Origin: a virus
IMG/VR virus record: IMGVR_UViG_3300042691_026427
Location: 62,001 to 126,000 of that record
Direction: 5' to 3' (one strand)
DNA: 64,000 nucleotides
The position numbers and the translations under genes were made by a program. Numbering within the stretch: position 1 is the first letter of the stretch; every line of letters begins with the position of its first letter. Shown piece after piece: positions 45,596 to 63,167 of this stretch. The notes under the pieces were generated by a model. It was not told where the DNA came from, ran no database searches, and saw only the letters and a program-made list of their open reading frames with translations.

Positions 45596-45962
45596 GTTTG
45601 TTTTTGTAATCAGCCACGGCTGCTTTGATAGCATCTTCTGCTAAAATGCTACAATGTATCTTAACTGGGGGTAGTGCTAGTTCTTCAGCAATCTCACTGT
45701 TCTTGATAGTGCCTGCTTGATCAAGTGTCATGCCTTTGACCATTTCTGTTATAAGACTGCTGCTGGCGATAGCACTGCCGCAGCCATAAGTTTTGAAGCG
45801 AGCATCAGTAATAATACCATCCTCAACTTTGATCTGTAGTTTCATTACATCACCGCAGGCAGGTGCGCCAACCATGCCAGTTCCTACTGTGTCGTCAATA
45901 TCAAATTTACCTACATTGCGAGGATTTTCATAGTGATCAATTACGGCGGCCGAATAAGACAT
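45579..45962 (-). CDS. iscU: Fe-S cluster scaffold IscU
   Basis: 127 residues. All scaffold ligands are present: C36 (with D38 in [10 protein letters not shown]), C61 in [11 protein letters not shown], and C104 with H103 in [16 protein letters not shown]. The LPPVK motif bound by HscA is intact at residues 97-101. IscU assembles [2Fe-2S] clusters with sulfur from IscS. No iscS, hscA/B or ferredoxin gene lies in the window, so the protein must work with the host's desulfurase and chaperones. The sequence is very close to proteobacterial IscU. A GAGG Shine-Dalgarno precedes ATG 45962. The frame of the disrupted homing endonuclease runs 26 nt into its 5' end. Confidence 0.95.
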
Positions 45963-46651: not shown

Positions 46652-47062
46652 TTATGTCAGGTCAGCAATCATAAACTCTTCATCGAAATATTGACGAACA
46701 TCTGGAACCATTCCTTGACTTGTGTCAAATTGCCATTGCCCAATGACTTCTAGTATTTGATTGTAAATTGTCGAGTTGTCTGTGTATCTTACAAAATATG
46801 GATCATTGCCGTATAACAGATCAGCATCGTCCAAATAGTCAATAGGATCGCCACCAAAGTATTCCGATAACCAACGAGCGTAGCATATGCCTACCATGTA
46901 GCTTTTTGCAGGATAGATCCATCCGATATCTTTTTCAGTAAAATATCTTACAGCATTATTTGTTATGTCATCAGACAGCACAATTTCTTTGGTATTGAGA
47001 TCGTCATCAAACACTTGATTGATCCGATGATAAACTTCTTGTCGTATTTTCCATTCTTTCAT
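46652..47062 (-). CDS. Unknown protein at the end of the radical SAM operon
   Basis: 136 residues, acidic and aromatic-rich (DIGWIYPAKSYMVGICYARWLSEYFGG, DADLLYGNDPYFVRY). No metal motif or known domain was recognised. It overlaps the 3' end of the radical SAM gene at 47007-47972 by 56 nt, an unusually long overlap, so the true start may lie slightly downstream. It is the last gene of the operon. Its position suggests a partner or substrate-binding adaptor for the neighbouring enzymes, but nothing in the sequence proves this. Confidence 0.6.
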   Translation of the reverse strand: MKEWKIRQEVYHRINQVFDDDLNTKEIVLSDDITNNAVRYFTEKDIGWIYPAKSYMVGICYARWLSEYFGGDPIDYLDDADLLYGNDPYFVRYTDNSTIYNQILEVIGQWQFDTSQGMVPDVRQYFDEEFMIADLT

Positions 47063-47972
47063 TTTTGTACCAGTTTATTAAATTGTAATAACCATTACAA
47101 CTATTGTCAAGATCCTTAACATACCTATAGTGCTCAGTTAAGCACCCGCCAAAGTAATCACAAGTGCGGCAAACATCACTGACATTAGCTTGTTTTTCTT
47201 TCTTAGTCCATTTAATGTAGTCATCAAATGAATCAAGTCCTAGAAAGTATTCTCTATCGTTAAGATCAAATTCAAGAACACCAAAGTTACCATTAGGAGT
47301 TATATAAACATGATCATCACTGAATGCATTTCGTTGCTTGTTTATCACATCTTCTATATAGTATTCATTAATAAATTCAAACTGTTTAGGTATTGAAGAT
47401 GCTATCCATTTTTTAACAAATTTTTCGTAATCAGCATGGCTAACATTGTAGCAGTTGGCCTGATTAATACTATAAGGTTTTATCTCAACACTTTCGACAC
47501 TTGAACATAAATTCATAGATTCAATTAACTCATCTACATTCATTTTCAATACTTCAGGACTTGCCAATACTAACACTGCAATAGGCACAGGACTCATTAA
47601 CATATTTTGATAAACTCGATCATGCTTTTCACGAGCTGACCAATCGTAACTAACACTTAGATAAAAGTCATCTTCGTAAAATCCCTCATGTAACATTGAA
47701 AAATTAGTAATAACATTAATCTTTCCTTGATAATGTTTACGAATAACATCACGCATTGCATAGAAGTAATCTTTTTTTAGAGCACCAATTTCACCGCCAT
47801 ATAAATCTATATGGCCTATCTCAGGTATTTGAGCCAATAGGCTATCTAACTTATCTAAGTCTATTTTATTAGTATCGGCAAGTTGCTGTTCAGTAAGATA
47901 ACAGAAGTCACATCTAAAATTACAAAAATAACTAGGATTGATCGAAACGGTAATAGGCTTATTCATGTTCAT
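47007..47972 (-). CDS. Radical SAM enzyme with SPASM-like C-terminus (rSAM 1)
   Basis: 321 residues. The [4Fe-4S]/SAM motif is C17-x3-C21-x2-C24 (FCNFRCDFC), followed by the GGE element in LYGGEIGALKK. The C-terminal part has CRTCDYFGGC and a later Cys (SCNGYY), fitting a shortened SPASM auxiliary-cluster domain. SPASM enzymes modify peptides or proteins. It overlaps rSAM 2 by 14 nt. It is small for the class (typically 350-450), so only one auxiliary cluster may be bound. Substrate unknown; a phage protein made in the same operon is the leading candidate. Confidence 0.88.
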   Translation of the reverse strand: MNMNKPITVSINPSYFCNFRCDFCYLTEQQLADTNKIDLDKLDSLLAQIPEIGHIDLYGGEIGALKKDYFYAMRDVIRKHYQGKINVITNFSMLHEGFYEDDFYLSVSYDWSAREKHDRVYQNMLMSPVPIAVLVLASPEVLKMNVDELIESMNLCSSVESVEIKPYSINQANCYNVSHADYEKFVKKWIASSIPKQFEFINEYYIEDVINKQRNAFSDDHVYITPNGNFGVLEFDLNDREYFLGLDSFDDYIKWTKKEKQANVSDVCRTCDYFGGCLTEHYRYVKDLDNSCNGYYNLINWYKNERMENTTRSLSSDQSSV

Positions 47973-49029
47973 TTACATAAGGTGTAGGATCTACTTTTCC
48001 AGTCAATCCGTTTGCTTCAATTATGAGAGGCGCTAGAGTTTTCATCTTAACACAATGAGCTTCTACCATATTGTGGTCTTTTAGATCTTTGATTGTTTTC
48101 TTGCAACCGTTGCATATTTGAAACATAGGGCAAGTCCAACAGCTCTGTTTTAAACTTTGTAATTCAGGTTGAAACTGTAAGGGAAATACTTTCTCCCCTT
48201 TCATTTCTTCTTCAAAGTTTATATTGTAGATCCGGTCATCACCAAATGCTCCGCAACTGTAATAATCGCCTGTAGGCTGCAAGGTTCTTATACCACTATC
48301 GCACGATCTGTTCTGAGGACAACTTGTGGCATATCCGTTCAAACGATTTACCATTTGTTTTGTGTTAAATTCCCATTCAGTTAACCCTTGTTGCCAAATT
48401 TTTACATATATTTCGTATATGTCAGCTAACATGTATGGTCTACCTTCTTGTCCCATAGTAATATTTTTAAATTTAACTGGAGGGCCACTGCTAAATGCAT
48501 AATTGAGTTTACATTCAACATTCATTTCTTTTGCCAGCTCTACATTCTTAATTGCAAGATGTTGATTCTCTTCTGTAATTACTGTGATAAAATCAGGACG
48601 ATATCCTATGCGCTCTAGCATCATATTGCTGACTGCCCAAAAGTCCTCTTCGCTGAATTCTGTTAGGTCTCCCTTAAGACGGCCGCCGCCATATTGGAAA
48701 CTAGTTGTGACTCCTAGGCGAGGATGCTTAAACAGAGATTCCCACTTGGTAGGATTTTTATAAAATGGCCACAGATTACTTGTAAAACTGATAGTAGCTG
48801 TCGAGCCTATATTGTCTAAGTGTTCAATAAGTTTCCAATAATAATCTGGTGGCATCATTAAGGGGTCGCCGCCATTGACAATTATAGTTCGAGTTTCTGG
48901 AAATCTTTCTAAGAAACGAAAGATATATTCATGATCAAGCTCTGCAGACTTATCTTCAGTAATGTTCGTGCTAGAACAAAATGTGCATTTAAAATTGCAC
49001 CGTTCAGTTGGCTTGATTATTAGATCCAT
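47959..49029 (-). CDS. Radical SAM/SPASM enzyme (rSAM 2)
   Basis: 356 residues. It has C11-x3-C15-x2-C18 (RCNFKCTFC) at the very start, a GGDPLM element, and a full Cys-rich SPASM-type C-terminus: SCPQNRSC, YYSCGAFGDD, SCWTCPMFQICNGC and a last AHC. This matches the peptide-modifying SPASM group (anSME, PqqE and sactipeptide maturase relatives), which use two auxiliary [4Fe-4S] clusters. It overlaps rSAM 3 by 26 nt and rSAM 1 by 14 nt, so the three are translated together. Exact reaction unknown. Confidence 0.9.
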   Translation of the reverse strand: MDLIIKPTERCNFKCTFCSSTNITEDKSAELDHEYIFRFLERFPETRTIIVNGGDPLMMPPDYYWKLIEHLDNIGSTATISFTSNLWPFYKNPTKWESLFKHPRLGVTTSFQYGGGRLKGDLTEFSEEDFWAVSNMMLERIGYRPDFITVITEENQHLAIKNVELAKEMNVECKLNYAFSSGPPVKFKNITMGQEGRPYMLADIYEIYVKIWQQGLTEWEFNTKQMVNRLNGYATSCPQNRSCDSGIRTLQPTGDYYSCGAFGDDRIYNINFEEEMKGEKVFPLQFQPELQSLKQSCWTCPMFQICNGCKKTIKDLKDHNMVEAHCVKMKTLAPLIIEANGLTGKVDPTPYVNEHE

Positions 49030-50674
49030 ATTCTACTATTTCTTCAAAGAGGTTATTATAGATTAACTGCTCGTTTGAATTTATAAATTCTTCGATTATT
49101 TCTAATCTATTTTTTCCATTTATTTTTGTTATATCCTTAGCAGCAGTTTCGTAATTTAGTGTATCTTTTACATCGTTGTATATCTCTTTAAAAGAACTAA
49201 TGTTATTCATAGCGGTCCAACAATATTCAAGAAATGTCCGAACATCTGGTAAAACATCTTTTAAGTTTTTCCAAAGTTTCCTGACTAATGTATCTGATGC
49301 AAAAGACATAATAAACATTTGAATGTTATCTTCTAATGTATAAGAGTTACAACTGGATATAGTTTTAAAATAATTTTTACGATTTTTATAAAGGCCGCTT
49401 GAAATAAAAGAAATTCCTTCTTCTACGGTTTGTGTGAAAACTTCTACTAATTTTATTTTATTTAAAGCACAATAAAGATCATCAGTAATTTCACTATCTG
49501 GTAGAGCCATATAATCATAAAAACAATATTGAATATTATTGTTTTCTAAACTATTGTATATCACTAACAGTTCATCATAAAAATCATCCAATGTTGAACC
49601 CGGCATTGCTCTTATAAATTCCATAAAAGGAGATGATGCTCCAAAATTTTTTTCGCAGTATTCAATTAATTGTATTTTATCTATCTTGTTTAAATCAACA
49701 CGTTTAGAAATCTTCATTGCATTATCACTTAAACTCTGAATACCTATATTAGGAACTATCGATTTTCTCCCGTTTGACGTATCTGTTCCTGTTATTTTGA
49801 AAATCTCATCAATTATCTTAATTTTTTTATCTAGATTTGTTGTTTTAAACAATGAAGAGTTTATAAATGACATTCCCAAGTCATATGCATATTTTAAGAA
49901 AAACAAGTCTCGTTCTAAGAATAATCCAAAGTTTGCATCAACATTATAAATTTGCTTATAACCTAATTTGTGCAGCACATCTATTTCTCTAATTACAATA
50001 TCTTCAGGTTTCTTTAACACCTTAGTTCCAATGCCGCCACCCCATTCACAATATGTACAATGAAATGGGCACCCTCTTGTAGTTTCTATTAATACGTGTG
50101 GAAATATTCCCTCAATATCGGCGTAGTCTTTTATCTTTTTTAAGTAATCGAAATTTTCTTCATATGCACAAACATTGGGAAATTGCCATTCTCGGCATTT
50201 AGTACTTCTTAATTCAAAACTAATATCTTCTATGTTAGGTATTCCGTTATTTTCAAAATAGGAATCTATAAAATCTTGCATGAATAGTTCGCCTGGTTTT
50301 GTTACCTGACAGAAATAATCATACATAGTTTTCTTTTTGAAGATATCTATATCTTTCTGCCCTATTTGCGGACCGCCCAACACATTAACTATATTAGGGT
50401 TAATATTCTTTGCCAATCTTGCAACTTCATCTATGATATCAGTATTCCAAATGTAAGAACTGTATAAAATTATGTCAGCAGTATTAACTTCTTCCCATAT
50501 TTCTTTACAACTTTGATATCTGTTATATTTGAATGGTGGCTCTAACCATTCAACTAAATCTTTGTATTTTCCAAAATTATCATAGTATGATTTCATCCAT
50601 ATCCAAGTCACTGGACTGAATAGCTCAGTGTCAATGCTAGGAGGATTTACAAAAGCTATTTTAATTTTTTTCAT
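49004..50674 (-). CDS. Radical SAM enzyme with putative cobalamin-binding N-terminus (rSAM 3)
   Basis: 556 residues. Residues 1-150 form a Rossmann-like domain (IKIAFVNPP; ADIILYSSYIW; NIVNVLGGPQIG) as in B12-binding radical SAM enzymes. The radical SAM motif is C202-x3-C206-x2-C209 (GCPFHCTYC) followed by EWGGG. The usual B12-ligating DxHxxG motif is absent, as in many members of this class that bind cobalamin without it. Such enzymes methylate unactivated carbon or phosphorus or rearrange rings. The C-terminal 180 residues are helical and unassigned. Without a B12 supply gene here, host cobalamin would be needed. Substrate unknown; it is the only member of this subclass in the operon. Confidence 0.82.
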   Translation of the reverse strand: MKKIKIAFVNPPSIDTELFSPVTWIWMKSYYDNFGKYKDLVEWLEPPFKYNRYQSCKEIWEEVNTADIILYSSYIWNTDIIDEVARLAKNINPNIVNVLGGPQIGQKDIDIFKKKTMYDYFCQVTKPGELFMQDFIDSYFENNGIPNIEDISFELRSTKCREWQFPNVCAYEENFDYLKKIKDYADIEGIFPHVLIETTRGCPFHCTYCEWGGGIGTKVLKKPEDIVIREIDVLHKLGYKQIYNVDANFGLFLERDLFFLKYAYDLGMSFINSSLFKTTNLDKKIKIIDEIFKITGTDTSNGRKSIVPNIGIQSLSDNAMKISKRVDLNKIDKIQLIEYCEKNFGASSPFMEFIRAMPGSTLDDFYDELLVIYNSLENNNIQYCFYDYMALPDSEITDDLYCALNKIKLVEVFTQTVEEGISFISSGLYKNRKNYFKTISSCNSYTLEDNIQMFIMSFASDTLVRKLWKNLKDVLPDVRTFLEYCWTAMNNISSFKEIYNDVKDTLNYETAAKDITKINGKNRLEIIEEFINSNEQLIYNNLFEEIVEYGSNNQAN

Positions 50675-51723
50675 TAGTTATATTTTAACACATTTTCTTC
50701 GTCGAGTCTATTAAAAAATTCTCTAAACAGACATTCGTCATTGCGTTCCAATTTTGCCCAATCAGCTTGCACAAAACATCTAAATGAGCAACGATCAAAC
50801 CATTTACATCCCAAGCATTTGTTGCGTTCAAGATGCGCTTCTATAATATTGCTGTTAGAAGAAAAATTAACCGGAGTTAGAAAATCTTCAGGCTCTGTCT
50901 TTACATAACGACAAGTTACTTCTCTACCTGACGGAAGTATAGTAGTCTTGTTCATCGAATAACAAGTCATCTTATTACGACTGTTTTCCAATAGATCTTT
51001 TACGGGATAAATGTTGGGATAATTCTTGGCAATATACATCATACAATCCAACATTTCCTGTTCACTAGGCATCATCTTATCTGCAGACAATTCTGGAACA
51101 TAATAATCAAAATACAATGTATATTTTTTATACAGTGTATCTATAAAAAATTTGTCTTGGTTGCGTAATATCTTTCTAATAGCCGGAGCAGTGAGTACAA
51201 ATCCAATAACAGTGATCCAATCTCCAAATATTTTTAAGTTATTTTCAAATTGTAATGATCTGTTTAAATTAAAACCTCTGCCTGCAAAGTCATAAGATGT
51301 CGAGATATATGCATTATTTCCCACAGCTCGCATACGAGTTATTAAGTCAATTACACGTTGACTCTTGTTGAATATCAAATTAGTTACCCAATTAAATCTA
51401 ACAATCTTGTTGTTGAGGTTAACCCAATCATTTATTTTTGAATAGAATTCCCAATAAGATTCAAATGTGTTATCTGGCACTAGATCATTAAAAATCTCTC
51501 CACCCATGACGTTTACAATATGGGAATCCTTATCAGATGCCGTCATGAAATCTATAACTTGCTGAGCCTTATCAACAATACTGTTAAGTTCCATTCCTTC
51601 TGTAGAATCGTGATCTTGTCCGCAAAATGCACAACTTAGATTGCAAAATTCAAATAGATGCAACTCGATTTCAGATGAATCGGGTACCTTATCTCTTAAT
51701 ACATGTTTTAGAAAATCACTCAT
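50674..51723 (-). CDS. Radical SAM/SPASM-like enzyme (rSAM 4)
   Basis: 349 residues. The radical SAM motif is C27-x3-C31-x2-C34 (FCNLSCAFCGQDHD), followed by VMGGEIF. The C-terminal Cys group is CLGCKWFDRCSFRC plus a later Cys (ECLF), fitting a SPASM-like or Twitch domain. It shares a base with the rSAM 3 start and overlaps the small upstream gene by 8 nt. It is more similar in layout to rSAM 1 than to the two paired modules. Likely modifies a peptide or protein. Confidence 0.87.
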   Translation of the reverse strand: MSDFLKHVLRDKVPDSSEIELHLFEFCNLSCAFCGQDHDSTEGMELNSIVDKAQQVIDFMTASDKDSHIVNVMGGEIFNDLVPDNTFESYWEFYSKINDWVNLNNKIVRFNWVTNLIFNKSQRVIDLITRMRAVGNNAYISTSYDFAGRGFNLNRSLQFENNLKIFGDWITVIGFVLTAPAIRKILRNQDKFFIDTLYKKYTLYFDYYVPELSADKMMPSEQEMLDCMMYIAKNYPNIYPVKDLLENSRNKMTCYSMNKTTILPSGREVTCRYVKTEPEDFLTPVNFSSNSNIIEAHLERNKCLGCKWFDRCSFRCFVQADWAKLERNDECLFREFFNRLDEENVLKYN

Positions 51724-52129
51724 ATATATGTTCCTGTGTCACGTTGTCTATATTAAAATCTTTTGATAATTCAAAACAATATTTAGGCGACGTCTTAACA
51801 TGGACCACTGCCAGTTTAAATTCATTCGACCATTTCTCTTCTTTATTCATAGACGACGTTAATATTTTAAACAACTCCTCCATAGAAGTTATTCCTAGTT
51901 CTTCTGTTAGATATAGAATATTATTATCTATTAATCTAAATTCCATTGTTAACGGATAGTAGTATCGACAATTGTACTCGTATATTACAATAACAGATAC
52001 AGGAAACAAGGCTTTCTTAAAATATGAATACTCTGTTACTGCTTTGGCATTATCTATAGCAGTAATAGTGCATGATATTTCTATGTCTGTATTTTTTCTA
52101 ATAAACACATCATCTGTAGATTGTAACAT
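51716..52129 (-). CDS. Small unknown protein next to rSAM 4
   Basis: 137 residues, acidic, beta-rich N-terminus (DIEISCTITAIDNAKAV) and a C-terminus with helices. No metal motif. It sits between rSAM 4 and the 310-residue module protein, overlapping rSAM 4 by 8 nt and sharing one base with the other. In RiPP operons such small proteins are often recognition elements or leader-binding partners; that role is only suggested by position here. Confidence 0.6.
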   Translation of the reverse strand: MLQSTDDVFIRKNTDIEISCTITAIDNAKAVTEYSYFKKALFPVSVIVIYEYNCRYYYPLTMEFRLIDNNILYLTEELGITSMEELFKILTSSMNKEEKWSNEFKLAVVHVKTSPKYCFELSKDFNIDNVTQEHIYE

Positions 52130-53061
52130 TATCTCACCTCAAACATTTTATATATAGCGTTTGGATTATCACTGTGTTTATATGCCCAATAGACTTTGCT
52201 CACAAACGTGCAGATTGCATTTTTGCCCAACGAATCTGATAGATAGGTAATCCTACAATCATTGCCTAGATCTCTATATAGTAGTTCTTCATATTGTTCT
52301 GCATATATAAGAGAAACAGGTTCTAAATAACTATCAACGCCAGCAGCATCTCTGTGAGCTATTGCATGATTATTAAATATTTTGATCATTTCTTTATAGT
52401 CAGGGAACAGTTTTCTTAATGCATGTTCGACATTAACATTGTTATGGTCAAAATCATAACCTAATATAAAATACCAGTCATTGTGATCTAGCATTTTTTT
52501 CGGAATATCAGAAAGTCGACTGGTTGAAAATTCTAAATCAGTTCCTGTAATATAATGAGCATTAAAAATGTCTCTCTTCATATCAGTTGCATACATTTGA
52601 AGTTCTTGAGATAACAATGACCAACAACAGAATTTAACGTATTCTAATAGTTTAGTTTTTCCCAAACCGCTTAATAGAAAGTTTGGTAATAAAAACTCGT
52701 AACCTAAATTGTCAATTGACAATTCTTCTAGACAAGAAATCTTATTATAATCTGTTTGGAAGATATCAACATATTTTTCTAAATTACTTTTTTCGTTATT
52801 CAAAGATAAATTTAAGAAGTATAACTCAAACAAATTGGTTAAGTTTTCTTTGCTGTTATCTTTTAATATATTTGAAAAAAAATCTCTAAAAATAGTTACA
52901 AACTGTTCTTCACTGCAATTAATCTTTATACTCTTTTCTTGGAATAATAATGTTTGCCAAAAAGCATCACTATTCTTTCCCAAAAGGTTGTCAGCAGATA
53001 TTGTTGAATCATAATCAGATTTACAACGTGTTAACCAAACATTGTTGAATAATCTTATCAT
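52129..53061 (-). CDS. Radical SAM-associated unknown, family A (module A copy)
   Basis: 310 residues. It is a diverged paralogue of the protein at 58911-59963: both start with M-x-x-L-F and share FLLPNFLLSG / YLLPDYLYHGE and EELLYRDLGNDC / EGLLHRDINRNF motifs near the C-terminus. Each lies directly after its module's radical SAM pair. No catalytic motif or metal site is visible. It could be a substrate-binding or scaffolding partner of the radical SAM pair. It overlaps the gene before it by 4 nt (ATGA). Confidence 0.7.
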   Translation of the reverse strand: MIRLFNNVWLTRCKSDYDSTISADNLLGKNSDAFWQTLLFQEKSIKINCSEEQFVTIFRDFFSNILKDNSKENLTNLFELYFLNLSLNNEKSNLEKYVDIFQTDYNKISCLEELSIDNLGYEFLLPNFLLSGLGKTKLLEYVKFCCWSLLSQELQMYATDMKRDIFNAHYITGTDLEFSTSRLSDIPKKMLDHNDWYFILGYDFDHNNVNVEHALRKLFPDYKEMIKIFNNHAIAHRDAAGVDSYLEPVSLIYAEQYEELLYRDLGNDCRITYLSDSLGKNAICTFVSKVYWAYKHSDNPNAIYKMFEVR

Positions 53062-53801
53062 AATTTACAAACTTCAGACAATAAAATATCTTTTGCCCAT
53101 CTAATAGGAATATGTTTAGATACATCTCTATTAGATGCAATAACTAGTGAGTTATCATGAGCCAATAAGCATTCTTCTACAGTACGATCTGACATAGTTA
53201 ATGTGCCAATATCTTTTTCAAAACTTAATGCTGCTACTAAATTTGCGTAATTGAATAGTTTATATAAGTTTTCTCCATATATATTTTCTACATACTGTTT
53301 TATTTCTAGGAAGTTTATGGGCACAGCTAGAGTATGTGTATCTCTTAGCATATCGTATCCCATTAATAACTGATCACTAGTAAATCTTATCAATGATCCC
53401 ATAAAGAAATATGTAGTGTTCTGTTCAATTGACTTCACGGGCTTATCTATTTCAAGGAGTGCAATATCGAACTGAGACGCACTGGTCATCCACTTTAAAT
53501 ATCCTTGGTCAATAATTTCGTATACTGCACTATCAGACCTAGATTTATTACGACTGTCTAGAGTACTGTGACGAATTTTACAATAAGATACCCAGTCTGA
53601 TCTAGAATAGCGTAATCCAGTAGCTAGTTGACCAAAATAAACAGACAACATTCCACTTATCGACAAGTGTCCTGGCTCATAATTTCTATCACCTAATGTA
53701 AATCTATAAAATCCTGGAAAGAAATCCCCAGAAGATAAAATTACCTTTGCAAATTCTTCGTCTGTAATATCTCTAGCTAGATATATTAAATCAATTGCCA
53801 T
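53058..53801 (-). CDS. Unknown protein of module A
   Basis: 247 residues, mostly helical and aromatic-rich (PGHLSISGMLSVYFGQLATGL, TYFFMGSLIRFTSDQLLMGYD). No Cys-rich segment and no domain I recognise. It occupies in module A the place that the CHxx-tailed protein holds in module B (directly before the family A gene), but no sequence similarity between the two is visible. It overlaps rSAM 5 by 11 nt and the family A gene by 4 nt. Confidence 0.65.
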   Translation of the reverse strand: MAIDLIYLARDITDEEFAKVILSSGDFFPGFYRFTLGDRNYEPGHLSISGMLSVYFGQLATGLRYSRSDWVSYCKIRHSTLDSRNKSRSDSAVYEIIDQGYLKWMTSASQFDIALLEIDKPVKSIEQNTTYFFMGSLIRFTSDQLLMGYDMLRDTHTLAVPINFLEIKQYVENIYGENLYKLFNYANLVAALSFEKDIGTLTMSDRTVEECLLAHDNSLVIASNRDVSKHIPIRWAKDILLSEVCKL

Positions 53802-54894
53802 ACGGAAGTGTACCCATTGCGTTTACTACTTCAAGGGCATTCTTTGCAACTAGACAATCTTTTACATTATGAACATCCATTAGATGCAAAATACCACGAT
53901 CAACACACGATCCTAAGAAAGGGCAGTCACCACATTCAGTCTTATCTCCGACATTAGAATACTGTGCTAATTGAACTGTCTGTTCAAAATTTTCAAAGTC
54001 TGTAGCGTGATGATTAGGTGTTGGAATTTTTAAGTCATCAATAAAACTAGCATATCGTTCATACAGTAATGGTGAGTAATAAAATTCTCCATTCTTCCAA
54101 TTGTATTGTTTTTCAACTAGCGAATCAGATAGTCGTCCAAACGAAAATCTTAGATAGTTATTTTTTTCATTAGTTACTACAGAATCATTAAACATTTTTT
54201 TAATTCGTTCTGCTGAATTAAAAAATTCTTCTGTAGTTAATTTCTCGTCTTTTCTTCCAAAAGAAAAATTAAAATCAATTGTGGTTTCGAATAAATGATT
54301 TACTCTCTTGTGTAGGTAATCATAATTTTTTAAGAGATCAGATATTTTAGTATTATCATAGTCGTAAACGTTCATAATGCCAAATGATCTTAGCTTTGTA
54401 GGCCAGTTCATCAATCGAATTACTTCTTCTTGATTTTTCTTAATTGTTTCTAAGTATTTGTCATTTTCTATCTGTTCAGGTTCGATAATGACATTGATTT
54501 CTAATTCGAGATTTGAATAATGATCTCTCAACACATCGGCAATTAAACTGGCCTTGCTGATGTCTAAGTAAGTTGTTTGAAAAGATAATCTTTTAAATTT
54601 ATTGAATATCTCTATAATTCTCTTGTCTGTTAGTAATGCATATGCATTTTTTGCTGAAAGGAAATCAGTAGGGCCAACAAATGCAATGAACGGACTGTAA
54701 TAATTGCCAGTGTTAAATGAATTTAAAACATTTTTTAAATCTTCATAGTGTGCATCTGTAAGAGGTTCTGCACCTTCTTTGTTTACATGACATCCTTTGC
54801 AATTCCACTGACAGCCATTTAATAATTCAAAATTTAAATTAAAATAAAATGTATAGGAATCATTTAAATTACCAGAAGCAAGATAGGCATCCAT
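53791..54894 (-). CDS. Radical SAM enzyme (rSAM 5, module A)
   Basis: 367 residues. C28-x3-C32-x2-C35 (GCQWNCKGCHVNKEGAEPL). The next strand has FVGPTDF, where many radical SAM enzymes have GGE; the paralogue rSAM 7 has LLPTDI at the same place. The C-terminal Cys group CGDCPFLGSC and a later KDC are SPASM/Twitch-like. Together with rSAM 6 it forms the module A pair, equivalent to rSAM 7 and 8. Loss of the canonical GGE in both rSAM 5 and rSAM 7 marks a separate subfamily. Confidence 0.85.
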   Translation of the reverse strand: MDAYLASGNLNDSYTFYFNLNFELLNGCQWNCKGCHVNKEGAEPLTDAHYEDLKNVLNSFNTGNYYSPFIAFVGPTDFLSAKNAYALLTDKRIIEIFNKFKRLSFQTTYLDISKASLIADVLRDHYSNLELEINVIIEPEQIENDKYLETIKKNQEEVIRLMNWPTKLRSFGIMNVYDYDNTKISDLLKNYDYLHKRVNHLFETTIDFNFSFGRKDEKLTTEEFFNSAERIKKMFNDSVVTNEKNNYLRFSFGRLSDSLVEKQYNWKNGEFYYSPLLYERYASFIDDLKIPTPNHHATDFENFEQTVQLAQYSNVGDKTECGDCPFLGSCVDRGILHLMDVHNVKDCLVAKNALEVVNAMGTLPYGN

Positions 54895-55614
54895 TTATTC
54901 TACTCCAAATACTTCTTCCGGATTTAGCGGAATTTCTTTGTTTATCATTTGATACAATAAGGGAACAAACATATTTAAATCATTATTATAGTAGTCAAAT
55001 AACGATTTTCCCTTAAACATGTGTGCTTCAAATTGTTGAGTAAAATACGTTAAACTTAAAGGTCTGTCTACTGAAAAGTATATTTCTAAAAAGCCTGGCA
55101 AACTAAAAAGATTAACAACATTTAATCCAACATAATGGGGATCATCAATATTTTCAAAGTTCTCTTTAACATTAAGTTCTGCGTTTAAGTCTTCAAAACT
55201 TTTAATTAGAAACAACATAGTAGAATCAATAAAATGAATCCAACGACCTACTAAACTTTCATTCTTAGTAATAAATTCTTCACACTCTTCTTTGGATAGC
55301 AAGCTCTTTCCATAATTTGCATCAGGATAAATGGCTTGTAAGATAATTTGAGCCGCAGCAACATTCAGATATGCAATGTTCGAAACACTGTTCCCCCCAA
55401 AATAAGCTTCAATTAATTCAAACTTTTGTTCTTTGGTTACTGACTCATTTAGAACCAAGTCAGAAGGAATATCTAAATTTGAGAGGTATACTAACAGTAC
55501 TTTTCCTTGAATTTTTGACTGTTGGTAATCTACCATAAAGAATGTATTTTTATCTTTAAAGTACTCTTTGATTTGATCAATTGGTATTGGTGCAATCGTC
55601 TGAACGTAATTCAT
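54895..55614 (-). CDS. Unknown protein between the module A radical SAM genes
   Basis: 239 residues, hydrophobic-rich helices (FIDSTMLFLIKSFEDLN, IYFSVDRPLSLTYFTQQFE) but no clear transmembrane span or known motif. It has no counterpart in module B. It overlaps rSAM 6 by 38 nt and directly abuts the rSAM 5 start. A partner role (delivery of substrate or cofactor to the pair) is plausible only from gene order. Confidence 0.6.
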   Translation of the reverse strand: MNYVQTIAPIPIDQIKEYFKDKNTFFMVDYQQSKIQGKVLLVYLSNLDIPSDLVLNESVTKEQKFELIEAYFGGNSVSNIAYLNVAAAQIILQAIYPDANYGKSLLSKEECEEFITKNESLVGRWIHFIDSTMLFLIKSFEDLNAELNVKENFENIDDPHYVGLNVVNLFSLPGFLEIYFSVDRPLSLTYFTQQFEAHMFKGKSLFDYYNNDLNMFVPLLYQMINKEIPLNPEEVFGVE

Positions 55615-56728
55615 TATAATTTTTCCTAAGTTCTGTTAAATTTTGTTTTGCTTTTGTTTCGTATAGTTGTATAAAGGTAGATTTGTTATTTCTAATCCTC
55701 GATATAACTTTTTTCGACAACGGGCATTCATCGCTGTCATCAAACAGACTTGCATCACAATTTCCGCCGCAAATATCATAATGTTCACATGTGAAGCACA
55801 TTTCATGTTGTGTCATTTCGGCTAATTTATTTATAATGACATCTACGGCCTTGGTTTGAAATGTATCCCAGTCGTTTACCATTTCATCAACTGTAGATAC
55901 AGGTTCAACATAAGTCTTGTCGGGGCAAAATCCAACAGTACCATTTGGATTTAACGTAAATGTTCTTTTATCGCAACAATTACATTTACAATCAAACATT
56001 TGACCGCTCAATAGAGTTTTGGTGAATAGATCTACTTGTGGTAAGCACCAAGTAGTTTCATTATGTTGGTAATATTCAACCAAAGTATCTAACCAATTTG
56101 CCCATTTGATATTATTTGGTTTTAAACTTCTTGTCTGTTCATCAAACGTAGTGAGCAATTCAAAGTCTATAGAATCAACTCCATCAAATAGTTTTACAAT
56201 TTCGAGAGGATCATAATTTAAAAGATATTTCTGTGCTGTGATAGATATATGCACTTTTATACCTGCATCTATTAATTTTTTTAAATTACCAAAGAATAAA
56301 TCTTCTTGCTCATGTTTTTTATTAATTGCAATAGATCCAAATCTTATATCAGCGTCCCAACTTACTCCAATAGTTGATCTATATTCATCCTTAATAAATT
56401 GAATAAATGTATCGTCTACCTTATAGAGTAAATTGGTTTGGGGTACAATGTCCATCGGCATTGAGCCAAAAGTATTTCTTATTATTTCATTTACTTTAAC
56501 TAAATGTTCGTAAGGTGATAAAAATGTCTCGCCACCATGTATGTAAAAAGTAGCCTTGGCAGGATCAACATTTTTTTTAATTGAGGTTAGAAATTTTTCA
56601 ATGTAACCTAAATCAGTAAGCATATAGGGATCTTTGTCTCCTAATGTAAAACAGTGAGTACAATTTAAATTGCAACCCTGTATCACTCTTAGATAGATTA
56701 CATTGAATTCGTTTGAAAAAACGTTCAT
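55577..56728 (-). CDS. Radical SAM/SPASM enzyme (rSAM 6, module A)
   Basis: 383 residues. C19-x3-C23-x2-C26 (GCNLNCTHCF), GGETFLS as the GGE motif, and a complete SPASM region (CKCNCCDKRTF, VGFCPDK, CFTCEHYDICGGNC, ECPL). It is a clear paralogue of rSAM 8: both share TLNxxGTVG/IxGCP-like and GVSWDADIRF / GTSWDPDIRF segments. The TLNPNGTVGFCPD pattern is typical of SPASM peptide maturases. First gene of module A, 4-nt overlap with the methyltransferase gene. Confidence 0.9.
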   Translation of the reverse strand: MNVFSNEFNVIYLRVIQGCNLNCTHCFTLGDKDPYMLTDLGYIEKFLTSIKKNVDPAKATFYIHGGETFLSPYEHLVKVNEIIRNTFGSMPMDIVPQTNLLYKVDDTFIQFIKDEYRSTIGVSWDADIRFGSIAINKKHEQEDLFFGNLKKLIDAGIKVHISITAQKYLLNYDPLEIVKLFDGVDSIDFELLTTFDEQTRSLKPNNIKWANWLDTLVEYYQHNETTWCLPQVDLFTKTLLSGQMFDCKCNCCDKRTFTLNPNGTVGFCPDKTYVEPVSTVDEMVNDWDTFQTKAVDVIINKLAEMTQHEMCFTCEHYDICGGNCDASLFDDSDECPLSKKVISRIRNNKSTFIQLYETKAKQNLTELRKNYNELRSDDCTNTN

Positions 56729-57597
56729 AACTTCGGCTTGCTTGCCACAATAAAATAATAGTTAAGTTTATTGTTTTTATGATTTTCTATAAAATATTCT
56801 TCAATGCCACTTTTAAGTTCCCACTGAGATCTCAATTCCCAATAAGGTACCAAATCTTTAGTTCTATCTTCAGTAAAAATTAAGTTTAAGCCTGAGTTAA
56901 CTATTGCAGTTTCGTATTCATTAATACCATGCATGGTAGATGCGTAATGATCGTTAATAGGTTCAATAAATTCATTAAAATTATTAGTGTCTAGATTGTC
57001 GTTAAAACACCAAGTGGCAATTACAAAGCGGCCACCGGGTTCTAAAACTCTGTATACTTCCTTAAACAACATGTCAAGTTCTAATGCATATTGAGTAACT
57101 TCGCAGCAATATGCATGACTAAAAGTAGCATCAGCATAGGGAATACTTAGAAAATTAGCCTGTCTAACTTCTGCTCTATCTTGTAAATTTCTTTTTTCTA
57201 TTTCGTCTTTACAAAAATTAGTTTGATACTCAGTTAAATTTACACCATCGACTTTGACATTTGAAAACTTTTCTATAATCCTAAACATGGTGCCTCCGCG
57301 TCCGCAGCCCAAGTCAATGACTCGTTGTGGTGTACCAAATAGTTTATCAAACTGTAAAAATGTTATTAAGTGACTAGTCAGTTTGTTTTCTTGTCGTTGG
57401 ACTTCTGCTGTAATTTCTTCTGTAGTTGCAGTAGTAGCATCTATTTCAGTAGGGCCTAAGCCAAAGTGATGATGAACAAAACCATCAACTGCTTGTAGCA
57501 AGTTTCTATCATTCTTTTTATTGTTATAATAATCAAATACCGCAGTACTAAGCGTGTTTTGAGTTTGGGTATGATCGTTGTTAAATTTTGTATACAT
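56725..57597 (-). CDS. Class I SAM-dependent methyltransferase
   Basis: 290 residues. Motif I VIDLGCGRGG lies at residues 93-102, acidic motif II follows in VDGVNLTEYQ, motif III in FSHAYCCEV, and VLEPGGRFVIATW is the post-III strand. The pattern resembles small-molecule C/O-methyltransferases of the Coq5/UbiE and sarcosine-methyltransferase group. The first 90 residues are an extra helical domain. Lying between the two paired radical SAM modules and next to a 2OG oxygenase, it may methylate the same modified product. No specific substrate can be read from sequence. Confidence 0.85.
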   Translation of the reverse strand: MYTKFNNDHTQTQNTLSTAVFDYYNNKKNDRNLLQAVDGFVHHHFGLGPTEIDATTATTEEITAEVQRQENKLTSHLITFLQFDKLFGTPQRVIDLGCGRGGTMFRIIEKFSNVKVDGVNLTEYQTNFCKDEIEKRNLQDRAEVRQANFLSIPYADATFSHAYCCEVTQYALELDMLFKEVYRVLEPGGRFVIATWCFNDNLDTNNFNEFIEPINDHYASTMHGINEYETAIVNSGLNLIFTEDRTKDLVPYWELRSQWELKSGIEEYFIENHKNNKLNYYFIVASKPKL

Positions 57598-58218
57598 TTA
57601 AATTTCCAGTAGTGCTTTTGCGTCTGTTGCAAAAGAATATCGTGTGCCAATAAAAGGTTTTGCCCTATGCCAAACATCCGACGCCATTACTATCATAGTA
57701 TACGGGATAGGAGCATATTTGTAAACCGGATTTAAATTTTCAGGCAACCAAACATGTGATAACGGGTTTTCTTTTAAATCTTCATAGAATTCAAAACATC
57801 CGTTATCCATTCCAATAGTATCATCTTGTTTGATATATAATACTGTGGTCACGTCACCGATTTCATCTGCTCTTAAAAAAGGTTGCCAGTGACGATGTAT
57901 ACGTTGGCCTTGCCAACTGTTAGGAGTGTTGAGCCATGAATCCTTGTCTAGATAATAGTTCTGGCCTTTGCCAGCAAATCTAGGATGCACCGTATCTAGA
58001 AAATCAAAAATAATGCTGTCTATTACAGCTTCAAACATCTTCACTTCTGGTGTATTTGTTTCCCAGACGTTTAATTTGTTTTTTTCATCATCGGGTCCCA
58101 AAAAATACATTTGCGTATTGTCAATTAACGAATTACAAAATGGTTCTATAAGTTCTTTGTAATCATTTAAATCATATATCATTGCATTAAAGTTAGGAAC
58201 TTTAAATTTGTTTGTCAA
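57598..58218 (-). CDS. Putative 2OG-Fe(II) oxygenase next to the methyltransferase
   Basis: 206 residues. HRHWQPFLRADE (H108, H110), then YTMIVMASDVWHRAKPFIGTRYSF with H184 and R193, is the layout of a small 2OG-type dioxygenase, with TTVLYIKQDD as the strand between. The acidic metal ligand is not certain (Asp or Glu around 118-122). It overlaps the 229-residue unknown by 4 nt and abuts the methyltransferase start. A tailoring role in the same pathway is inferred. Confidence 0.7.
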   Translation of the reverse strand: MTNKFKVPNFNAMIYDLNDYKELIEPFCNSLIDNTQMYFLGPDDEKNKLNVWETNTPEVKMFEAVIDSIIFDFLDTVHPRFAGKGQNYYLDKDSWLNTPNSWQGQRIHRHWQPFLRADEIGDVTTVLYIKQDDTIGMDNGCFEFYEDLKENPLSHVWLPENLNPVYKYAPIPYTMIVMASDVWHRAKPFIGTRYSFATDAKALLEI

Positions 58219-58910: not shown

Positions 58911-59963
58911 TTAGTAAAGTCTAAATGGAGCCAAATCTGCTGTTAAATTTTGTCTCTTTTTTCTATAGCAATAAGTTGAAAATATTTGATTAGATTTTTC
59001 TCTAAATAATTCAAATGTATAAAGACACCCAAAGTTTCTATTGATGTCTCGATGTAGTAATCCTTCCCAATCTTCAGCCATAAGCATTTGGTTTACTTCA
59101 AACATATCTTCATTACCTGTATGATCGGGCACCCATATTCTTTCTAAGGAATGCCATTGATTAACAAGATTGTTGTAATCATAGTTAGAAGTAATGTAGG
59201 AAGGTTCTGCTGAGAAATTCTCATCAACCATCCAATTTAACGTTGAGCTGTTTTTCAATTGGTCTTCGACGTTACCTATTTCAAAGTTGCTGTCAGGGTC
59301 TATTACACCCATGTCTAAGAATCCAAACATCGTTTCTAATCTTAGTTGCTCCAACTCATCTCGCCAGTTGTCAATACTAATGATTCTAACACGGTCTAGT
59401 ATTTCTTCTTTGCATAGACTTTCTTCACCATGATATAGATAGTCGGGCAAAAGATATTCGAACGAAACATCCTGTTTATTAATGACATTTCTTAAAAAAT
59501 TAGAAACTGGTTGAGCATCGTATATAACTTTGAATTCTTCGAATGATTTCATCTTAAAAGTATCTCTTACCATTTGATGTCGCGTATCGGGTGCATTAAC
59601 TTGTATATAGGATCTTACTCGCACACTTTCAACCATTGATTTATACAGGAGGTAAACATCTTGCTCTGAAGCATATTGAAATATACTTTTTGCATATTGT
59701 ATTAACAATCTCTCAGTAACATCGGTTTTTAAATAGGCGATAAGTTTGTGATCAGCTTCGTACATATATTGCCAAAATTGTTCAACATCGTTTTCAAAAT
59801 TGTTTGCCAATAACTCGTCAAATGTGCCAACTGACGGCAGTATACAAATATCTGTTGGCATTGGAAAGAGATTGTATAAATCGGTTGCCATTAACATTTT
59901 GTAACCAATACTGTCGAATTTATAATCAAATTCTAAATAAGCTCTTTTAAATAAGTGAAACAT
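58911..59963 (-). CDS. Radical SAM-associated unknown, family A (module B copy)
   Basis: 350 residues from MFHLFKRAYL. This start, one base after the stop of the CHxx-tailed gene in a TAATG junction, is preferred over an upstream ATG that reads the other gene's tail in another frame; the paralogue at 52129-53061 starts the same way (MIRLFNNVWL). Shared motifs are YLLPDYLYHGE and EGLLHRDINRNF. The strict coupling to the CHxx-tailed gene suggests that the two proteins act together, for example as substrate chaperone (inference). No known domain. Confidence 0.72.
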   Translation of the reverse strand: MFHLFKRAYLEFDYKFDSIGYKMLMATDLYNLFPMPTDICILPSVGTFDELLANNFENDVEQFWQYMYEADHKLIAYLKTDVTERLLIQYAKSIFQYASEQDVYLLYKSMVESVRVRSYIQVNAPDTRHQMVRDTFKMKSFEEFKVIYDAQPVSNFLRNVINKQDVSFEYLLPDYLYHGEESLCKEEILDRVRIISIDNWRDELEQLRLETMFGFLDMGVIDPDSNFEIGNVEDQLKNSSTLNWMVDENFSAEPSYITSNYDYNNLVNQWHSLERIWVPDHTGNEDMFEVNQMLMAEDWEGLLHRDINRNFGCLYTFELFREKSNQIFSTYCYRKKRQNLTADLAPFRLY

Positions 59964-60625
59964 TATCTTCTTCCTCTTGATCCGTGGCAATTATTATGGC
60001 ACGATGAATGACACACACGTAAATCAACTGTTCCTATTGAACCTCTTAGTGCAGTAACTGCGGCAGCTAAATTAGTATAAAAATTGTTGATATTGGCTGC
60101 AGAAATAGTAGCATTTGTACTTGGTTCAGATGATACGAACCCTACAGATTGCAAATAATTATTATTAAGATGGGCTTGGCCATAAGTTAATAAAACTGTT
60201 CCGGAGAAAAAGGGGATGTTTGCATTGTCTGACGGTACGCCAGTTTGAGTATATTGACCGTTAAAATATTGAGTATAATAAAGGCCCCAAACAGCTGGAC
60301 GTAATCTAGTAGTAGCATTGGCAAATGCTTTGCACATATTAACAATTAAACTGGCGTTTATTGTCAAACCGGATGCTCCTGAACCAGGTAGATTAGAAGT
60401 CGTTGGATATGCGTATGTATTCGTACCTAACTCACTTAACCTTGCAGAGAGGTATGCTCCTGTCCAGCCGATAACAGTACCGTTGTCCCACATTCTAACG
60501 TTAATTACTGGAACGTTGTAGTAGTGTATGCTTCCACTAGGGTCCATTCGCGAGGTATTCATCACTGTTGCAATAAAGTCATTAACTACGCTGGCTTTGG
60601 TTATAACTTGTCCTGTAGATGCCAT
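59963..60625 (-). CDS. Candidate radical SAM substrate protein with C-H-x-x repeat tail
   Basis: 220 residues. Residues 1-200 form a Thr/Asn/Ala-rich globular domain (INVRMWDNGTVIGWTGAYLS; GLYYTQYFNGQYTQTGVP) of no family I can name. The last 16 residues read CHSSCHNNCHGSRGRR: Cys-His pairs at 205, 209 and 213, every four residues, then an Arg-rich end. Dense Cys tails at the C-terminus of a long leader-like protein next to SPASM enzymes are typical RiPP cores that receive thioether links, or can bind metal. The gene has the best Shine-Dalgarno in the operon (AAAGGA) and an ATTAAATA motif upstream, so strong expression is expected. It is flanked by family A and rSAM 7. Confidence 0.75.
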   Translation of the reverse strand: MASTGQVITKASVVNDFIATVMNTSRMDPSGSIHYYNVPVINVRMWDNGTVIGWTGAYLSARLSELGTNTYAYPTTSNLPGSGASGLTINASLIVNMCKAFANATTRLRPAVWGLYYTQYFNGQYTQTGVPSDNANIPFFSGTVLLTYGQAHLNNNYLQSVGFVSSEPSTNATISAANINNFYTNLAAAVTALRGSIGTVDLRVCHSSCHNNCHGSRGRR

Positions 60626-60638
60626 TTATCCGTTCCTT

Positions 60639-61640
60639 TTATTTAATATCCAAAAAACAACCCATGTTAAAATCTCTTGCTATAGGAAAATACCCTTTTC
60701 CCATGCAGTGGGTTAAATTTTTACAATTGACACATTTGTCTAGTATCACGTTATTTATATCATCTATACTGCTGTAAGTTTTAATAAAACCTTCGTAATT
60801 TGGAGTCAGCACTCTAAATCGAGGATTATCTATAAAAACGTATTCATCAAAAGGAATAATAGGAGTTAAAAAAATATCACCCGGTGACCCTAAAAAAGTA
60901 AATGCAGGTTTTCGCAACAGTGTTCTGTCGTTGTATTGTTTTGTTGCATTCTCTGTACCTAAATAATGATCAGTTATGTCATGTATGGTTCTAATGCTTT
61001 CTTGCAACATGTTTGTTTTTTTCTCCAAACTTATATCTGGATTATACAAAAATGTAAAATTTAGTTCAATTATCTCATCATCGGATAAAAAATCTAACAT
61101 TTGGTTTAGTTTAACTTTTTCCTTATCGGACAATGTAAATCCGGTATTGATTGCCAAGTTGATTATAACATCATCGCCGTATGTTTCTTTAATCTTTGCA
61201 ATTCTAGATTTTATTGTTATTTGATAGTTTATGTCAAACAGTTTTGCTATCAATAGATTGACCTGCAATTCAATTTTGGCCAATGGATTATTGTTTTTTA
61301 CAATTTTAAAAAATTCTGGATCAAACCCTGTTTCTAACGTAGATGCCACACCCACATACTCAAACAATGAAACTGTTTCTGCAAATTCTGCATTTTCAAA
61401 CAGTTTGTAATTGTCCTTGTTATCAAATATATCAGTTGGCAATAGATAACAAGTTTCCAATTCATAACCGTTTTTCAACAAGTCTTTGGCCAACGATAAC
61501 GAAGATGTAAAATCGTTGTAATTATTTTTAGTTCTGTTGTAAAAACATCCCCGGCAATCCATGGAACAGTCATTCAATACCAGCATTCTAAATTCTGCCA
61601 GTTTGTATGGGTCACCATATCTTTCGTAGGAATTATACAT
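60639..61640 (-). CDS. Radical SAM enzyme (rSAM 7, module B)
   Basis: 333 residues. C25-x3-C29-x2-C32 (DCSMDCRGCFYNRTKN); the second strand is YLLPTDIF with PTD in the place of GGE, as in rSAM 5. The C-terminal Cys group is KCVNCKNLTHCMGKG followed by a final Cys (GCFLDIK). It lies 13 nt upstream of the CHxx-tailed gene and overlaps rSAM 8 by 8 nt, so it is the enzyme physically closest to the candidate substrate in the operon. Confidence 0.86.
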   Translation of the reverse strand: MYNSYERYGDPYKLAEFRMLVLNDCSMDCRGCFYNRTKNNYNDFTSSLSLAKDLLKNGYELETCYLLPTDIFDNKDNYKLFENAEFAETVSLFEYVGVASTLETGFDPEFFKIVKNNNPLAKIELQVNLLIAKLFDINYQITIKSRIAKIKETYGDDVIINLAINTGFTLSDKEKVKLNQMLDFLSDDEIIELNFTFLYNPDISLEKKTNMLQESIRTIHDITDHYLGTENATKQYNDRTLLRKPAFTFLGSPGDIFLTPIIPFDEYVFIDNPRFRVLTPNYEGFIKTYSSIDDINNVILDKCVNCKNLTHCMGKGYFPIARDFNMGCFLDIK

Positions 61641-62688
61641 GATGTACAGCCTTGATAGGAATTGTAATTCTCTTTGGCTTTGCCAATGCTTTCATCAAAC
61701 TTTTCGGTGCTCCGCATATATCGTCCTGCCATTCTAGTTGATGACAATCGCTGTTGCAGTATTCAAATACTTCGCAAGTATAACATCTAGGATCCCTAGC
61801 TCTTTCGCAAGAAATGTTTTCTAATCTCTGGGGACTTGTTAACAAAGAGGCAATGTCATCATCAATGTGGCCAAATTGATGTTCTGGGGCGCTATTGGGG
61901 CAACCAGATATAGTTCCATCAGCATTTAGGGTAAACAGCTTTTCTTCACAGTCCCTGCAAAATGTAGCGCCATTGGTAAGTCCAATTTCAAATTTAGCAT
62001 AGATGCTTTCCATAAATTCGTTACTGAACCATGACCTTGCGTCATGCTCTACTATCTGATGGTGCATCTTTAAAAACCACTGATCTTGTTCTAAGTTTGT
62101 GGGAAATATATGCAAATTTTCTCTTGCGCTGCCGTTCATAGTGAGACGCTCAAGTGCTAGATCAGTAACGCCTAAATCTCTTATCCATTCCAGCAGATCA
62201 ATAGGTTCCATGGCAACGGTGCCTCGGGTAACACTGACAAACAGTTTGACCTCAACTCCTAGATCAATTAGGGTCTGCAGATTCTTTCGCCATAAGTCGT
62301 ATTGTTTAGGACTGGCAAATCTTATGTCTGGATCCCAGCTAGTTCCTATGCGGCCTCCCAATGGCCCCATGATAAAATCAATCTTGTCCTGTGTTAACTT
62401 ATAAGTTAAGTTGGTAGTGACACCCCAGCTGCGACTAGCCCATAATTCCTGGCATTGATCATACACATACTGCATCGATGATATATCTGCTAAAAAGGGT
62501 TCGCCGCCGTGAAACTCTAAATGTACATGGGGCGCACTAGCTGTTTCAACATGTAGACGTTTAAGCCAATCGGCAACCTTTACATGATCCCAATATATCT
62601 TTGCGCCTTTGCTGCCGCTAGTAAAACAGTGCAGGCAATTGAGATTACAGGTTTCTGTAGTCTTGAGGTAAATCATTAATTCTTTCAT
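61633..62688 (-). CDS. Radical SAM/SPASM enzyme (rSAM 8, module B)
   Basis: 351 residues. C14-x3-C18-x2-C21 (TCNLNCLHCF), FHGGEPFLA, then a full SPASM set: FCRDCEEKLFTLNADGTISG with GCPNS, RCYTCEVFEYCNSDC and a final DICG. It is the closest paralogue of rSAM 6 (GTSWDPDIRFAS vs GVSWDADIRFGS). SPASM enzymes install thioethers, carbon-carbon links or formylglycine in peptides. First gene of module B, 8 nt after the cupin-like gene; no Shine-Dalgarno. Confidence 0.9.
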   Translation of the reverse strand: MKELMIYLKTTETCNLNCLHCFTSGSKGAKIYWDHVKVADWLKRLHVETASAPHVHLEFHGGEPFLADISSMQYVYDQCQELWASRSWGVTTNLTYKLTQDKIDFIMGPLGGRIGTSWDPDIRFASPKQYDLWRKNLQTLIDLGVEVKLFVSVTRGTVAMEPIDLLEWIRDLGVTDLALERLTMNGSARENLHIFPTNLEQDQWFLKMHHQIVEHDARSWFSNEFMESIYAKFEIGLTNGATFCRDCEEKLFTLNADGTISGCPNSAPEHQFGHIDDDIASLLTSPQRLENISCERARDPRCYTCEVFEYCNSDCHQLEWQDDICGAPKSLMKALAKPKRITIPIKAVHHV

Positions 62689-62696
62689 CAGAATAT

Positions 62697-63167
62697 TTAA
62701 TAGCCTACGCTAAGGGCCCAAGTATTTTGTACACTGCTGACTCGATGTAGATAGCCCCGTGGTATTATCACATGCTGACCCGGATGCAATACAACCTTTT
62801 TATTTCGAATGTAAACTGTCTTTCGACCCTTTATTACATGCAGTAATACATTTACATCGTCTTTGTGCCAATCAAAACTGTAGCCAAATTTTTGATTGAC
62901 AAATAGGTGTATGTTTTTAAAATTTATCTTGTTAAAACAAGAACTGACAGCGTGATCTGTTTCAAGGCCTTCAACTTTTATCACAGGATAGGATTTATGC
63001 TGTTCTATCCATTGAGAAAAAGTAAAAAAATCTTTAACTATGCAATCACTGTGTTTATAGTCAGGGTGACCTATAACTTTTATTAAACCCTGTTCATACT
63101 TGGAATAATCTAACAGCTGATCGGCCAGTAATTTACTTACTGTCTTGGTCAGGCAGTGGTCCGCCAT
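62697..63167 (-). CDS. Cupin/JmjC-like Fe(II) oxygenase
   Basis: 156 residues. The C-terminal half has FDWHKDD (H101, D103 or D104), a KGRKTVYIRNKKVVLHPGQ strand pair, and IPRGYLHRV with H141, the metal triad layout of small JmjC/cupin_4 hydroxylases. LHPGQ and IPRGYLH are strong cupin markers. It is shorter than ribosomal oxygenases. Its start overlaps the right-edge gene by 35 nt. As first enzyme before module B it may hydroxylate the same protein target; this is inferred from order only. Confidence 0.75.
   Translation of the reverse strand: MADHCLTKTVSKLLADQLLDYSKYEQGLIKVIGHPDYKHSDCIVKDFFTFSQWIEQHKSYPVIKVEGLETDHAVSSCFNKINFKNIHLFVNQKFGYSFDWHKDDVNVLLHVIKGRKTVYIRNKKVVLHPGQHVIIPRGYLHRVSSVQNTWALSVGY

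Follow-up and report, generated by a model that had tools for sequence, protein, structure and literature searches.

The gene considered here lies on the minus strand of a 64,000-nucleotide stretch of viral DNA, called the window (positions 62,001-126,000 of the 149,248-base IMG/VR virus record IMGVR_UViG_3300042691_026427). It encodes a 220-amino acid protein with the C-terminus VDLRVCHSSCHNNCHGSRGRR and the last residues CHSSCHNNCHGSRGRR, in which three Cys-His pairs recur with a period of four residues and RGRR forms the very end. A first-pass annotation of the DNA had described this open reading frame (ORF), its coordinates and length, and a tail of three Cys-His pairs spaced by four followed by an Arg/Gly end, and the translation agrees exactly in each respect. 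CHxxCH is absent from every other window ORF of at least 40 amino acids. The gene is part of an operon of 19 packed, co-directional genes, from 63167 to 46652, that overlap or are separated by no more than 13 nucleotides (nt). Eight of the 19 genes have matches to the radical S-adenosylmethionine (rSAM) family PF04055. The proposed position between an rSAM gene and a coupled partner was also confirmed: an rSAM ORF (60639-61640) lies 13 nt upstream, and the downstream ORF (58911-59963) appears translationally coupled to the tail gene because the two overlap in TAATG. The ribosome site of the gene is strong (duplex dG -6.2); it had been called the strongest of the operon, which is incorrect, as those of 51716-52129 (-6.9) and 57598-58218 (-6.3) are better.

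The CHxS-tail protein, as we call it, is not an orphan and belongs to a large family without a name. A DNA pattern for the motif alone (CHxxCHxxCHxxRGR), run without gene context on the viral contig collection, found at least 120 stretches, at least 116 of them encoding proteins that end in CHxxCHxxCHxx[R/K]GRR. A similar pattern found only 15 stretches in cellular genomes (257 billion bases), mainly in Bdellovibrionota and phage-like contigs. Relatives were located by tblastn in three Burkholderia glumae jumbo phages, and a similarity search added one viral contig. The annotated phage records examined have the tail, or an SRSRR form, at the expected place. A tblastn search of phages and plasmids with the 26-amino acid consensus tail found nothing, a query this short being uninformative there. 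Pfam and NCBIfam hold no family for the protein or 55 relatives, single matches at chance level aside.

Conservation is concentrated at the C-terminus. In all 67 distinct proteins that were fetched without use of the motif, CH, CH, CH and R-x-R-R occupy identical C-terminal positions, and the fourth residue of each unit is Ser in 56 to 64 proteins. These fixed positions, together with the loci found by motif only, exclude chance. The Cys and His codons are split nearly evenly between synonyms, and 80 distinct protein tails are encoded by 159 distinct DNA tails; conservation therefore acts on the protein. The bodies are 100-340 residues in length, most from one conserved family, and are far less conserved than the tail; in 97 of 139 tail proteins, no Cys occurs before the last 20 residues. 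The precursor-like layout suggested in the first-pass annotation is thus seen among homologues as a variable N-terminal body and an invariant C-terminal core. A natural variant (L331:7617-8189) ends in FCHSSCHYSCHSSCHGDGPGNGGGV, with four CHxS units, a Gly-rich end, and no RGRR. Some phages have tandem tail genes or small tandem precursors.

The linkage of the tail and rSAM genes runs both ways. The first 50 loci of the forward viral scan were checked for rSAM genes: every one of these tail-bearing records has PF04055 matches, most often three to six, and 42 of the records have matches above the curated cut-off. Near each of the 15 loci taken from genome contigs there are likewise rSAM-like ORFs with a CxxxCxxC motif. 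As a control, any rSAM was found in one of 32 random contigs drawn with an arbitrary 15-mer; these controls are few and on average shorter, and length lowers the difference without explaining it. In the reverse direction, among the 80 best matches to each enzyme, the tail was found in 69 of 69 loci with enough sequence downstream of the adjacent SPASM-domain enzyme rSAM1, mostly within about 40 nt of its gene, and in 33 of the 34 rSAM3 loci with both flanks complete. The sole exception in the latter set is L331, with the four-unit variant. The expectation that the tail always lies near rSAM genes was thereby borne out, and no tail homologue in a phage without rSAM genes, which had been named as the finding that would speak against it, occurs among the 50 records and 15 loci.

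Fibre genes are neighbors of the cassette in most loci. In 38 of 54 loci, a regular expression for a fibre-type C-terminal signature finds a gene upstream; ten examples have matches to tail-fibre or virion PHROGs, and several of them also match Peptidase_G2 below its cut-off. In phage Atu_ph07, according to the main text of its description, most virion proteins map to three clusters, including one of coding sequences (CDS) 170-215 defined by mass spectrometry (PMC6102473). The RefSeq numbering agrees with that of the authors (gp215 is the major head protein), and the CHxS-tail protein of this phage is gp170, the edge gene of the CDS 170-215 cluster. From this position at the edge of the cluster as the main text gives it, gp170 may be among the detected virion proteins.

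An AlphaFold2 (AF2) model of the window protein has a mean predicted local distance difference test score (pLDDT) of 72.9 and a predicted template modeling score of 0.70. The model had no match in the PDB at E<=0.001 and no VIA-align Z over 3.8, but it may still have a known fold. In BFVD it matches only unnamed phage proteins, one from Atu_ph07 included. Three of the matching entries (A0A8S5USJ7, A0A8S5USJ8, and A0A8S5USV2; Myoviridae sp. ctijX18) are proteins of 504-660 residues.

The tail also occurs in predatory bacteria, in which it is sporadic, as it is present in eight of 291 Bdellovibrionota genomes. Contigs of four of these genomes were read (L269, L270, L271, and L272). By inspection, the cassette is flanked there by genes that look chromosomal, and the gene order in L271 closely matches that of the window. 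No match to terminase (PF03237) or gp23 (PF07068) was found in the four genomes, which leaves other kinds of phage possible. Adjoining the cassette, L269:6254-7291 and L270:15855-17042 encode a prepilin-like N-terminus joined to a Peptidase_S74 fibre chaperone; the N-terminus in L270 matches PF07963 above cut-off, and a similar, incomplete ORF is seen by inspection at L272:3-1220. L269, L270, L272, and L142 share a further protein, which has RHWV[K/Q]VK at its C-terminus. Among the suggestions of the first-pass annotation, that of a modified receptor-binding tip is strengthened by the fibre genes beside the cassette and by these predatory-bacterium loci.

The genes of the window are listed in the table below. 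Three of the products (rSAM1, rSAM3, and that of 55577-56728) are SPASM-domain radical SAM enzymes that score above the TIGR04085 cut-off, rSAM1 with 32.1 bits against 27. The SPASM Cys pattern is present in 23 rSAM1 sequences. The closest curated relatives of rSAM1 include the peptide maturases PapB and DynA, and in the PDB it is related to, among others, rSAM enzymes that modify peptides or proteins. The best conserved enzyme is rSAM3, with a mean column identity of 60%. The core genes of the table recur with clusters of 2-oxoglutarate (2OG)-oxygenase-like proteins (37 and 31 loci) and cupins (27 and 27 loci); the cobalamin-type enzyme and rSAM5 are less frequent. The cobalamin-type ORF scores 101.5 bits against NF033712 (KedN5 family, cobalamin rSAM C-methyltransferases) and does not reach the cut-off of 700. 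The DUF239 model had no PDB match at E<=0.001 and likewise no VIA-align Z over 3.8, most of it being barely tested by the aligner, and it may have a known fold. Phages whose tail genes are in tandem have arrays of rSAM5-type enzymes; in the 42-kb T4-like record G001, nine rSAM ORFs with CxxxCxxC and two tandem tails were counted by eye. Among the clusters present in at least four of the 54 loci, none was recognized as a protease or an exporter.

Table. Features of the tail-protein operon and adjoining genes in the window. Locus counts are from 54 non-identical loci and depend on ORF calling and BLAST threshold; aa, amino acids.
Feature	Coordinates	Strand	Evidence
A-type Fe-S carrier and IscU/NifU_N scaffold, adjoining the cassette	45275..45962	-	PF01521 and PF01592
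Conserved partner, 136 aa	46652..47062	-	37/54 loci
rSAM4 (INPSYFCNFRCDFCYLTEQ)	47007..47972	-	51/54 loci
rSAM3 (IKPTERCNFKCTFCSST), SPASM	47959..49029	-	53/54 loci; TIGR04085 27.8 bits, cut-off 27
Cobalamin-dependent-type rSAM, optional	49004..50674	-	PF02310 and PF04055 below cut-off; 23/54 loci
rSAM2 (HLFEFCNLSCAFCGQDH)	50674..51723	-	48/54 loci
Three overlapping ORFs (53058-53801, 52129-53061, 51716-52129)	51716..53801	-	No Pfam or PHROG match
rSAM5 (LNGCQWNCKGCHVNK)	53791..54894	-	PF04055 E 0.0012; phrog_31457; 9/54 loci
DUF239 cassette partner	54895..55614	-	49/54 loci; AF2 mean pLDDT 92.6
Second SPASM rSAM of rSAM1 type	55577..56728	-	TIGR04085 28.7 bits, cut-off 27; clusters with rSAM1
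SAM-dependent methyltransferase	56725..57597	-	PF08241 E 7e-16
2OG-Fe(II) oxygenase-like protein	57598..58218	-	phrog_81 E 7e-9
Conserved protein, 229 aa	58215..58904	-	Similar ORF in L271 (5008-5697) by inspection
MFHLF-type partner, 350 aa	58911..59963	-	At least 43/54 loci by strict N-terminal motif; PHROG 36207
CHxS-tail protein, proposed substrate, 220 aa	59963..60625	-	PHROG 35144 match
Proposed modified core, residues 205-220, CHSSCHNNCHGSRGRR	59966..60013	-	Invariant C, H, and R-x-R-R among relatives
rSAM-like protein (CSMDCRGC), directly upstream of tail gene	60639..61640	-	PF04055 E 0.006; similar ORF in syntenic L271
rSAM1, SPASM radical SAM enzyme	61633..62688	-	CxxxCxxC and CX2CX5CX3C..C; adjacent to the tail in nearly all loci; 54/54 loci
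Cupin upstream of rSAM1	62697..63167	-	PF07883 31.4 bits, cut-off 27.2

At the end of the cassette in the window, a minus-strand ORF containing NUMOD3 (46214-46591) is probably a homing-endonuclease remnant. In Burkholderia phages, two dihydrofolate-reductase-like genes lie within the cassette (L001:14863-16078; so annotated in SURPRISE13 and L007). One cassette (L128) is on a contig of a metagenome-assembled genome labeled Euryarchaeota archaeon SP339, and its source may be a virus or an archaeon.

Genomic data support the first-pass interpretation of the C-terminus as a modified core. We consider it fairly probable that the CHxS-tail protein is the substrate of a phage-encoded rSAM maturation line and that its modified C-terminus is displayed on the virion, most likely at the baseplate or a tail fibre or close to one of them. 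The N-terminal body, which is variable, would fold and either be incorporated or recruit the machinery, and the C-terminal (C-H-x-S/N)3 repeat would be the core. The first actor would be rSAM1, which would most likely abstract hydrogen from a residue beside each Cys and form one crosslink per CHxS unit, either a Cys thioether or a different link through backbone or side chain. Later changes could be made by rSAM2-rSAM4, the cupin, and the 2OG oxygenases, with further ones added in some phages by the cobalamin rSAM and the methyltransferase. The DUF239 and MFHLF proteins may serve as carrier, chaperone, or docking factors, and the A-type carrier and IscU are the probable cluster supply of the cassette. 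The core would remain attached to its protein, since no protease or exporter is seen to recur in the cassette.

Several points weigh against this proposal. The fibre-type signature was not found upstream by the regular expression in 16 of the 54 loci, including the window. The main text of the Atu_ph07 description does not name gp170 individually (PMC6102473), and the AF2 model is weak precisely at the C-terminus (pLDDT of about 52). No curated family assigns any of the cassette rSAM enzymes to a peptide substrate. There are four to nine rSAM enzymes for a core of 16 residues, and some of them may act on other proteins. Modification of the tail, the order and chemistry of the enzymes, and a location on the particle are inferred from genomic data.

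The excess of enzymes over plausible core sites would be accommodated if the CHxS tail were a recognition tag or docking handle and the rSAM enzymes modified another part of the protein or its fibre neighbors. The far greater conservation of the tail than of the body and the fibre genes next door fit such a tag. We nevertheless think it unlikely, as a tag would not obviously need an exact Cys-His pair in every unit, nor obviously tolerate the fourth unit and the loss of RGRR in L331; moreover, no second invariant motif was seen in the other recurrent cassette proteins in a search that was not exhaustive. Regular Cys-His pairs are also good ligands, and Cys and His from several chains could form an unmodified site at the tip of a fibre or spike that binds Zn, Fe, or Cu, with the rSAM enzymes otherwise employed. 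Metal sites at phage tips are known; PAAR-type and T4-type tips were both considered, and the comparison in T4 is with the His pairs of gp37 that bind iron. An unmodified site would not explain why the linkage to specific rSAM families is nearly absolute in both directions, and we regard it as quite unlikely.

Precursor-like layout, maturase-like enzymes, and the small tandem precursors of some phages would suit a released peptide, either an effector or a bacteriocin-like ribosomally synthesized and post-translationally modified peptide aimed at the host or competitors. Release is hardly probable given the lack of a recurrent protease or exporter noted above, the length of the bodies and their membership, for the most part, in one conserved family, the fibre genes as neighbors, and the place of gp170 at the edge of the virion cluster in the main text on Atu_ph07. 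Lastly, marine T4-like genomes carry an A-type carrier and, in one of them, 12 rSAM genes, which were proposed to be Fe-S-related auxiliary genes (PMC5332604). The rSAM and Fe-S genes of the cassette, which IscU and the A-type carrier adjoin, could similarly be auxiliary metabolic genes for host Fe-S metabolism, with the tail protein as a passenger. This is very improbable, as a passenger is not expected beside the same enzyme in all 69 rSAM1 loci that had enough downstream sequence among the best 80 matches, in different phage lineages and on bacterial contigs.

The first-pass annotation had likened the locus to ranthipeptides and to His-Xaa-Ser systems. Both comparisons stand as analogies and fail as memberships, the enzymes being far below curated cut-offs. 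As in ranthipeptides, a Cys-rich C-terminal core follows a longer N-terminal part and a SPASM rSAM adjoins, and no NCBIfam model matches rSAM1 better than PapB; the score is, however, 49.7 bits against a cut-off of 340 (NF047865). The CHxS repeat also differs from the PapA pattern, as do the 100-340-residue body, the several rSAM families, and the phage operon. The His-Xaa-Ser system (HxsA with HxsB, HxsC, and HxsD) similarly combines a repeated His-Xaa-Ser with several rSAM enzymes, whereas here a Cys precedes each His and the three (or four) units are at the C-terminus. The models for HxsB (TIGR03978) and HxsC (TIGR03977), with cut-offs of 370 and 267.9, each gave 30.6 bits at best, and no HxsA model was among the NCBIfam matches at E<=1 for 55 tail proteins. 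SCIFF, with six Cys in about 45 residues, was rejected as well, since the core has three Cys in 67 of 67 proteins.

Among rSAM protein maturases, anaerobic sulfatase maturase and QhpD are likewise SPASM enzymes that act on a protein that stays whole; the closest matches, both curated and in the PDB, include sulfatase maturase, although the substrates, motifs, and gene sets are unrelated. T-even gp38-type tip adhesins resemble the CHxS-tail protein in having ~200 residues, a variable body, and a gene near the fibre gene, and differ in that the latter has an invariant Cys-His C-terminus, an rSAM cassette, and no PDB fold match for its model. The MAT fibres of Bdellovibrio carry S74 chaperone fibre modules on predators (PMC10769870), comparable to the prepilin/S74 chimeras that adjoin the cassette here; the main text of that report mentions no radical SAM enzyme or cysteine tail (PMC10769870).

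A literature search, covering few subscription journals or preprints, found no paper that describes the tail, ties these rSAM enzymes to it, or connects a virion substrate with the rSAM genes of phages. The authors of the FLC6 genome gave no role to the cupin, rSAM, and oxygenase genes that they listed (PMC8066314). A conserved tail beside rSAM and fibre genes suggests an undescribed way of chemically remodeling a virus surface protein. More tentatively, and with slightly less than even confidence, we propose an undescribed class of surface proteins in which several dedicated rSAM enzymes would build a Cys-His tip, crosslinked or modified in another way, on virus fibre proteins; the class would be common to unrelated phage lineages and to predatory bacteria with phage-type fibres on display, bringing radical chemistry into host binding. 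If true, many rSAM, 2OG-oxygenase, and Fe-S genes in jumbo and marine phages, at present classed either as unknown or as auxiliary metabolism, would acquire a substrate and a function, and radical enzymology would gain a new class of substrates. The building of a host-contact tip would then be directly testable in the cultured isolates FLC6, FLC8, Atu_ph07, and pPa_SNUABM_DT01.

Elsewhere on the minus strand of the window, three ORFs (8290-9282, 12618-26036, and 26069-29062) encode giant proteins, the largest of 4472 residues, that consist mostly of GFTGS-type collagen-like repeats. The first half of a 393-residue protein (4789-5970, minus strand) matches PHROGs named ferrochelatase, and its second half matches 2OG-Fe(II) oxygenase.
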